Of a DNA stretch of 64,000 nucleotides, positions 13,943 through 51,060 are shown piece by piece. Source of the DNA: an uncultured Chlorobiota bacterium (lineage in GTDB: Bacteria; Bacteroidota; Ignavibacteria; UBA10030; UBA6906); contig CAADGV010000020.1 of assembly GCA_900696645.1 (NCBI GenBank), forward strand, positions 1 through 64,000, written 5' to 3'. Each line of letters begins with the position of its first letter. Position 1 is the stretch's first letter. The position numbers were made by a program, and so were the translations under genes. The notes below the pieces were generated by a model. It did not search any database and was not told the origin of the DNA. It worked only from the letters and a program-made list of their open reading frames with translations.

Positions 13943-14370
13943 AGACCCCACCTATGTTGTTGATGTTGAGTTTTGGATGCACTACACATCCTTCGTTGTT
14001 GAGGCCTCAGGCAGGGGGGGTAGGAATTTGGGGGGGAGATCCAAAACGCCGCACACAATAGCCTTACTTCTTGCCTCACACCTGAGACTATCTCACGCGA
14101 TATGCCAATGTTTAGGTTGTGAGTCTGAAGGATGCAATATGATGCAAAAGGGAGGAAAACAGATACGAAATCGGAAAAAGTATCGCCGGCGAGTCAGACA
14201 AAGTATGACGCGCCGGCCGGCGGAGCGCTCACCCTTGTTCATCCTACACGTTGCTTGTACATTTTACAATCATTTTTGAGGAGAGAGTTGCGGCGGAATA
14301 CCTTCGCAAGCACTCTTCGCCGGAGGTTTCACAACTGCAGATTGGCGGCGAGACTGTTGGATGGCTCACA
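13943..14370. other. Intergenic region, no gene seen
   Basis: About 430 bp between the HTH gene and the terminator of tRNA-Ser. It contains two short G-runs (around 14014-14020 and 14030-14036) and several short frames without ribosome sites. I see no supported gene. Confidence 0.5.
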
Positions 14371-14400
14371 AAAAGAAGTCCCGCAACATTTCGCGGGACT
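14371..14400 (-). terminator. Intrinsic terminator of tRNA-Ser
   Basis: Perfect 8-bp stem agtcccgc/gcgggact (14377-14384 and 14393-14400) with an 8-nt loop. It is followed on the minus strand by TCTTTTTG. It lies downstream of the minus-strand tRNA-Ser gene and past the duplicated tRNA fragment. Confidence 0.8.
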
Positions 14401-14467
14401 CTGTTTGCGGAGAGGGAGGGATTCTCCGCCGGAGGCGGATGCGCCTATGGCGCAGAACCCTCAATAG
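14400..14467 (-). repeat. Partial duplicate of the tRNA-Ser 3' end carrying a double-palindrome insert
   Basis: A 25-bp stretch (tctgtttgcggagagggagg plus gattc) occurs at 14400-14424 and again at 14468-14492, where it is the 3' end of the tRNA-Ser gene and its flank. In the first copy the T-loop is interrupted by about 30 bp made of two adjacent palindromes, tccgcc-gga-ggcgga (14424-14438) and gcgcc-tat-ggcgc (14440-14452). The sequence then resumes with aaccctc-atag as in the intact gene. This looks like a small palindromic element inside a duplicated tRNA tail. Confidence 0.75.
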
Positions 14468-14475
14468 TCTGTTTG

Positions 14476-14562
14476 CGGAGAGGGAGGGATTCGAACCCTC
14501 GATAGCCTTACGACTATACTAGTTTTCGAGACTAGCGCCTTCAACCACTCGGCCACCTCTCC
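14476..14562 (-). tRNA. tRNA-Ser (anticodon CGA)
   Basis: 87-nt gene on the minus strand with a full class II cloverleaf: acceptor GGAGAGG/CCTCTCC, D-arm GGCCGAGTGG, anticodon loop CTCGAAA (anticodon CGA, reads UCG), a long variable arm, and T-arm gaggg-TTCGAAT-ccctc. The discriminator is G. CCA is not encoded (next bases CAA), so a CCA-adding enzyme is required. Confidence 0.95.
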
Positions 14563-50886: not shown

Positions 50887-50966
50887 CTGTCCCAATTCGT
50901 TGGGACAACTTGGACATTCAGTAATCGCGCTGATTGTCTGAAAAATACACTTCCTCTTTAAAGTGG

Positions 50967-51007
50967 CCCCGCCGCCCCAAATCCCACCAGGTGGCGGGGT
51001 TTTGTTT
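50967..51007 (+). terminator. Terminator between tRNA-Gly and tRNA-Cys
   Basis: Stem ccccgcc/ggcgggg (50967-50973 and 50993-50999) followed by TTTTGTTTG. The loop contains a smaller ccacc/ggtgg helix. It would separate tRNA-Gly from the following three tRNA genes. Confidence 0.75.
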
Positions 51008-51060
51008 GTGTAGGGAAGTGTTGCTATTTGAACGACCTCAAGTGTGATTGAATTGTCCTC

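Follow-up and report, generated by a model that had tools for sequence, protein, structure and literature searches.

A hairpin-filled tRNA-Ser copy as a probable ORF-less member of a tRNA-nested GIY-YIG element family in Ignavibacteria

In the 64,000-nucleotide stretch of DNA analysed here (the window), an intact tRNA-Ser(CGA) gene is followed by a broken partial copy of itself, the T-loop of which is filled by two short hairpins (Table 1). The explanation that we favor, and consider probable, is that this feature is an ORF-less member of a mobile family nested in tRNA genes, in which a GIY-YIG nuclease would cut the genes in their loops and a spare copy would be left behind, sealed with hairpins. 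A full member of the family would consist of a small free-standing GIY-YIG gene on the strand of the tRNA, flanked at one end by the intact target tRNA and at the other by the half of the original tRNA gene that was displaced, its loop filled by hairpins.

Table 1. Coordinates of features at the tRNA-Ser(CGA) locus and at an empty site of the window
Feature	Position	Strand	Basis
Intact tRNA-Ser(CGA), host gene of the insertion	14475..14562	-	ARAGORN, Rfam
25-bp direct repeat, copy 1: 3' part of the tRNA, from T-loop GAA to tRNA end, plus 7 bp of 3' flank	14468..14492	-	sequence
CTATTGAGGGTTC: variable-arm end, T-stem 5' strand and T-loop TTC; second partial copy, 12/13 identical to the tRNA	14455..14467	-	sequence, two-sided insertion search
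Palindrome 1, in tRNA sense TGCGCC-ATA-GGCGCA	14440..14454	.	
Palindrome 2, in tRNA sense TCCGCC-TCC-GGCGGA	14425..14439	.	
25-bp direct repeat, copy 2: GAATCCCTCCCTCTCCGCAAACAGA, then ancestral 3' flank	14400..14424	-	sequence, flank mapping
68 bp missing in the sister-species ortholog; the direct repeat makes the placement ambiguous by 25 bp	14400..14467	-	G001 alignment
Intrinsic terminator AGTCCCGCGAAATGTTGCGGGACTTCTTTTT; in the sister species directly after the tRNA	14370..14400	-	sequence, fold, G001 alignment
Empty site upstream of tRNA-Cys (51061), between tRNA-Gly and tRNA-Cys	50888..51060	+	G001 alignment, flank mapping

The original prediction described a 25-bp tRNA-Ser tail repeated at a distance of 68 bp, with two adjacent perfect palindromes breaking the repeated sequence. 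Both elements were confirmed. The sequence tctgtttgcggagagggagggattc occurs at 14400-14424 and 14468-14492 (25/25 identical, offset 68), and the tRNA is Ser(CGA). Between the repeats, the plus strand reads TCCGCC-GGA-GGCGGA (14425-14439), TGCGCC-TAT-GGCGCA (14440-14454), and then GAACCCTCAATAG (14455-14467), which is a 12/13 copy of the tRNA's CTATCGAGGGTTC as read on the minus strand. In the sense of the tRNA, the gene ends with ...CTATCGAGGGTTC GAATCCCTCCCTCTCCG CAAACAGA, followed by CTATTGAGGGTTC, TGCGCC-ATA-GGCGCA, TCCGCC-TCC-GGCGGA, GAATCCCTCCCTCTCCGCAAACAGA, and the terminator. The palindromes could be defined more sharply than predicted: each is 15 bp long with 6-bp stems, and the twin hairpin (14425-14454) is placed exactly between the TTC and the GAA of the copied T-loop. 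As read directly from the sequence, the T-stem with TTC/GAA can close a junction from which the two hairpins rise. The 25-bp direct repeat is tRNA derived, and the only terminal inverted repeats are the hairpins themselves. The 68-bp insert has no ORF, and there is no nuclease gene at the window locus. A group I intron was rejected, since Rfam identified only tRNAs in the window and no ribozyme core.

The arrangement of the palindromes is not due to chance. With up to 2 mismatches allowed, the expectation for each palindrome in the window is ~0.12, and RNA of the minus strand of the locus folds far better than shuffled sequences (z = -4.98). Elsewhere in the genome to which the window belongs (G000), there are two near-exact copies of the 30-bp unit, against none in a reversed control, together with several looser ones; relatives contain more copies. 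The locus is thus not the one-off rearrangement that an absence of further copies would have indicated. In addition, the ortholog in a sister species (G001) is collinear and lacks exactly these 68 bp, with the tRNA and the terminator kept. The empty ortholog and the further copies agree with the integration-site behavior that had been proposed from the duplicated tRNA end.

Since the broken copy lies between the tRNA and a conserved terminator, which is also found in the sister species, it is plausible that the copy is transcribed together with the tRNA from the minus strand, as had been suggested. The same position on the same strand, the strong fold, and the conservation of structure while sequence varies would also fit a broken copy that acts as RNA, i.e., as a co-transcribed T-arm/acceptor decoy affecting maturation, stability or nuclease expression. 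We consider such a role improbable: copies turn over between sister species, other copies have their anticodon arms replaced by unrelated hairpins, and there are also copies upstream of the tRNA.

Comparison of the same two genomes indicated that the tRNA-Ser(CGA) insert is one of many polymorphic copies, with the caveat that G000 and G001 are one pair of draft genomes. At tRNA-Cys, the situation is reversed; the window genome is empty and the sister species is occupied by a GIY-YIG gene, preceded by a 5' copy of tRNA-Cys with a hairpin in the D-loop. Interrupted partial self-copies accompany ~13-15 of 44 tRNAs in G000 and 7-8 of 43 in G001, and only about five loci are common to both. We used empty orthologs to map the flanks. 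The ancestral 3' flank picks up again past the broken copy at Asp, Gly(UCC), Ser(CGA), Ala(GGC), and others, and the ancestral 5' flank stops before the broken copy at Arg(CCG), Cys, and Pro(UGG). This is the pattern predicted by insertion inside the tRNA with the gene re-made. The mapping of the 3' flank of Ser(UGA) conflicts with insertion inside the tRNA. At two loci, part of the 3' flank is also duplicated (the first 43 nt at Asp and the first 7 nt at Ser(CGA)), suggesting that repair involved a tandem duplication. The sister species also has a copy of tRNA-Ser(GCU) (L229:1732-2000) with large hairpin pairs in the anticodon, variable, and T-loops at once; the tRNA pieces flanking these hairpins are 100% identical to the intact tRNA-Ser(GCU) gene.

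A duplicated tRNA 3' end is also the classic sign of an ordinary integrative element, and the insert could in principle be the scar of one that was lost, i.e., a tyrosine recombinase att site. We judge this to be very improbable. The insert is only 68 bp long, occupied sites contain GIY-YIG genes and not an integrase, copies of the 5' part of tRNAs recur regularly, and an att scar would leave the loop hairpins unexplained. No integrase-bearing element was seen at the same junction in relatives.

The gene that is linked to the family encodes a GIY-YIG nuclease. Spacers of ~250-450 nt usually contain a small GIY-YIG gene, and in the larger members this gene, on the strand of the tRNA, separates the intact tRNA from its broken copy. 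With an HMM derived from seven proteins, we surveyed GIY-YIG genes in G000 independently of the palindromes. Of the seven small GIY-YIG genes, six were within ~100 nt of a tRNA and on the same strand, for which the chance probability is ~1e-15. The seventh gene is divergent and has a twin hairpin on either side. Across all loci, every GIY-YIG ORF with a nearby tRNA is on the strand of that tRNA, and in nearly all cases a broken copy of the same tRNA lies beyond the gene; L254 has a GIY-YIG neighbor without a clearly interrupted copy. Divergent UPF0213-like proteins encoded in the same genomes have no tRNA nearby. Nuclease genes of the tRNA-linked type are present in 77 of 98 genomes. Genomes with T-loop twin hairpins have 5.1 such nucleases each, against 2.0 in the others (p 2e-7, with relatedness ignored). 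In one relative (G021), a hairpin array is present and the assembly has no nuclease of the tRNA-linked clade.

The proteins match PF01541, and their closest solved relatives by sequence are UPF0213 and SLX1 (1zg2, 1ywl, and SLX1). Their open frames are mostly ~80-130 aa. In 58 tRNA-linked members, the catalytic residues Y, Y, G, R, H, and E are conserved, and a dN/dS of 0.09-0.15 indicates purifying selection; judged from these sequences, the tRNA-linked nucleases look active. In a tree of 61 GIY-YIG proteins, limited by few alignment columns, the amino acid of the associated tRNA changes 19 times, compared to 36.1 times after shuffling (0 of 200 shuffles were as low), and the side of insertion changes 16 times. 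The conserved tRNA amino acid and the variable side suggest that the target is kept and the position is re-made. Nuclease clades follow tRNA identity, an indirect hint of putative sequence-specific cleavage of the element-free allele with gene conversion.

We next consider the distribution of the twin hairpins. At least five copies in G000 are in T-loops of partial genes, namely, Ser(CGA), Ser(GGA), Ser(UGA), Gly(CCC), and Arg(UCG). Of the 98 genomes of the order (Ignavibacteria), 35 had a twin hairpin inside GGTTC/GA, and the reversed control gave zero. In the genome collection, the same pattern occurs in 92 stretches, from Ignavibacteria/Bacteroidota, many Patescibacteria, and some others. 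For most copies, an intact tRNA lies within ~500 nt on the same strand. There are two recurrent classes: copies located downstream preserve the T-arm together with the precise 3' end, and those located upstream preserve the 5' part as far as TTC. Several individual loci were unusual. Tandem arrays of T-arm plus twin-hairpin units occur in G021 (L212, on C9; seven units with a 140-bp period) and in G041 (L213, on C596; five units with an ~92-bp period, directly behind an intact tRNA-Ser(UGA)). On a contig labelled Nanoarchaeota, a T-arm copy with a twin hairpin lies 78 nt after tRNA-Val (L105:3127-3163), reflecting either cross-domain spread or a mis-binned contig. A match in Streptomyces (L124) is one long hairpin that looks like chance, and we discarded it.

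The original prediction likened the palindromes to REP/MITE-like elements and suggested a search for a linked RAYT transposase. The REP/RAYT part did not hold up. It is true that the units are palindromic, short, and multicopy and that Y1 genes are present in six of the seven genomes tested. However, the Y1/RAYT-type genes of G000 are on contigs C31 and C33, apart from the palindromes; G022 has twin hairpins but no Y1 gene; the units are low copy (a handful in G000); single units are practically absent from T-loops; and the units lack the GTAG or CGTC tag that REPs carry (PMC3733652). Moreover, the gene that proved to be linked to the family is the GIY-YIG nuclease and not a Y1 transposase, and the palindromes of the window are one of several unrelated hairpin pairs in the loops of spare tRNA copies. 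Movement by a Y1 transposase is therefore largely refuted, and we hold it to be highly doubtful. REP/BIME sequences resemble the family in being short palindromic repeats that are often paired; the family differs in having no tag and no linked RAYT, in its low copy number, and in its location mainly in the loops of tRNA copies.

Twin 15-bp hairpins were also found away from tRNAs, with TTC or TTT before them and GA or AA after them enriched. At one such place in G000 (L016/L007, C11:50836-51374), a divergent GIY-YIG gene with no adjoining tRNA has a twin or near-twin hairpin on each side; the insertion point of both is AAGTC/GAAGGATG, within a CATCCTGAGCG-type repeat. In G021, a twin hairpin lies within a CRISPR-like repeat (L023:944-973), at GTCTC/AATTCCACTATGGTCCGATTCAAAC. 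We considered whether insertion occurs at any hairpin tip and dropped the idea: the non-tRNA flanks were more complementary than shuffled sequences at two positions only, the first base and base 5, and the presumed non-tRNA set proved to consist mostly of further tRNA copies. The occurrence of twin hairpins away from tRNAs means that they may have mobility of their own. It also fits the main rival explanation, in which two independent players are at work. Palindromic repeats with a TTC/RA preference would insert anywhere, including the CRISPR repeat of L023, and would survive in T-loops only where there is a spare copy, and GIY-YIG elements would merely supply the copies. We think this unlikely. 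There are few copies per genome, the presence of twin hairpins tracks nuclease number, unrelated hairpins fill the anticodon and D-loops of surplus copies, and the order of the two units relative to the tRNA is fixed (GC/CC 46, CC/GC 3) although TTCGAA is symmetric.

The loops themselves follow a regular pattern. Two-sided insertions are mainly in loops, with 37 of 88 at the T-loop position 18 nt from the 3' end. Breaks occur in the T-loop, the anticodon loop, the D-loop, and at times the variable loop, and the filling hairpins differ in sequence by locus. Different genera tend to have the same loop of a particular tRNA interrupted, for example, the T-loop in Ser(GGA), Arg, and Asp, and the anticodon arm in Ser(GCU) and Pro. 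Inserts in D-loops are mostly single hairpins. In T-loops, a single 15-bp unit was found as 1 imperfect case in 98 genomes, compared to many doubles, spread over 35 genomes. Within a T-loop insert, the two units are identical in only 2 of 123 distinct inserts, where 18 were expected (0 of 20,000 permutations); part of the locus set was picked by the twin-hairpin pattern, and an unbiased subset of 23 inserts had the same trend with weaker numbers. Identical units would fuse to one long hairpin, and two separate hairpins thus seem to be needed in T-loop inserts. Other pairs (TCCCGAAGGGA-TGGCTTCGCCA and longer ones) retain the form but not the sequence.

We propose the following mechanism for the GIY-YIG family. 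A nuclease specific for one type of tRNA would cut the gene in a loop, at GTTC/GA in the T-loop class. Repair of the break, templated by the element or by a tandem duplicate, would leave one working tRNA, made anew, and a fragment in surplus. At the cut point, twin hairpins would then protect this fragment against renewed cutting or prevent it from acting as a tRNA. For the surplus copy in the window, the seal of the T-loop would be TGCGCCATAGGCGCA-TCCGCCTCCGGCGGA. The nuclease gene is missing there, and the 68 bp may be a remnant or a mini-element made in trans; the origin of this copy through nuclease action is suggested by analogy with loci that have the gene. Because the presumed target persists in the intact tRNA, self-cutting would have to be restrained in some way.

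The closest known system is SegB of phage T6, a free-standing GIY-YIG homing endonuclease with its gene next to tRNA genes. SegB is reported to cleave inside tRNA genes, with RAWTSGAAC as its motif, and to cause recombination that amplifies the tRNA and segB in tandem (PMC13096335). The reverse complement of this motif, GTTCSAWTY, appears to fit the T-loop sequence GTTCRANTC, in which the twin hairpins sit. We checked the gene order around segB in T4, in which the segB coding sequence is 666 bp. Like SegB and the free-standing GIY-YIG endonucleases of T-even phages, the family combines a nuclease gene beside tRNA genes with tandem duplication of tRNA and nuclease (PMC13096335, PMC2988022). As with SegB-like elements, the GIY-YIG gene occupies its presumed target, and otherwise collinear sites either have it or lack it. 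Unlike SegB (221 aa), the family is chromosomal, is found in Ignavibacteria and Patescibacteria, encodes proteins of mostly ~80-130 aa, and is inserted inside re-made tRNA genes, with isotype-specific clades and hairpin-filled surplus copies. We rejected a phage origin: the T-loop twin-hairpin pattern had no exact match in 2.9 million viral contigs, and the nuclease gave only weak phage matches. With UPF0213 and SLX1, the likeness is one of sequence to the nearest solved relatives, and UPF0213-like genes of the same genomes are not beside tRNAs. Mobile group I introns in tRNA genes share with the family a homing nuclease, a tRNA gene as the target, and preservation of tRNA function; here, however, there is no intron or ribozyme, and function would be preserved by re-making the gene and not by splicing. 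The part of the literature that we covered does not describe GIY-YIG elements nested in the tRNA genes of bacterial chromosomes. The family is apparently an undescribed variant of free-standing GIY-YIG homing elements, with the twin hairpin as an unexplained feature.

A bolder reading, which we offer tentatively as a possibility, is that these elements are a new class of bacterial mobile element with a tRNA-gene loop as its target and the twin hairpin as its end. The GIY-YIG protein would recognize the T-stem with two hairpins as a three-way junction, as kinship with SLX1/UPF0213 would allow, and would move or duplicate full or ORF-less units across phyla, building integron-like arrays behind a tRNA that is always re-made.

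tRNA genes are essential and universally conserved, and an element that inserts into them must avoid killing its host. The family described here appears to spare the host without splicing, by having the gene re-made and the leftover half disarmed, and it offers many independent insertions with empty sites and with nuclease clades matched to tRNA types. If the favored explanation is true, it would extend the tRNA-cutting homing nucleases of the SegB type from phages to bacterial chromosomes, and it would explain the many tRNA fragments and small tRNA-side GIY-YIG genes in Ignavibacteria and Patescibacteria.
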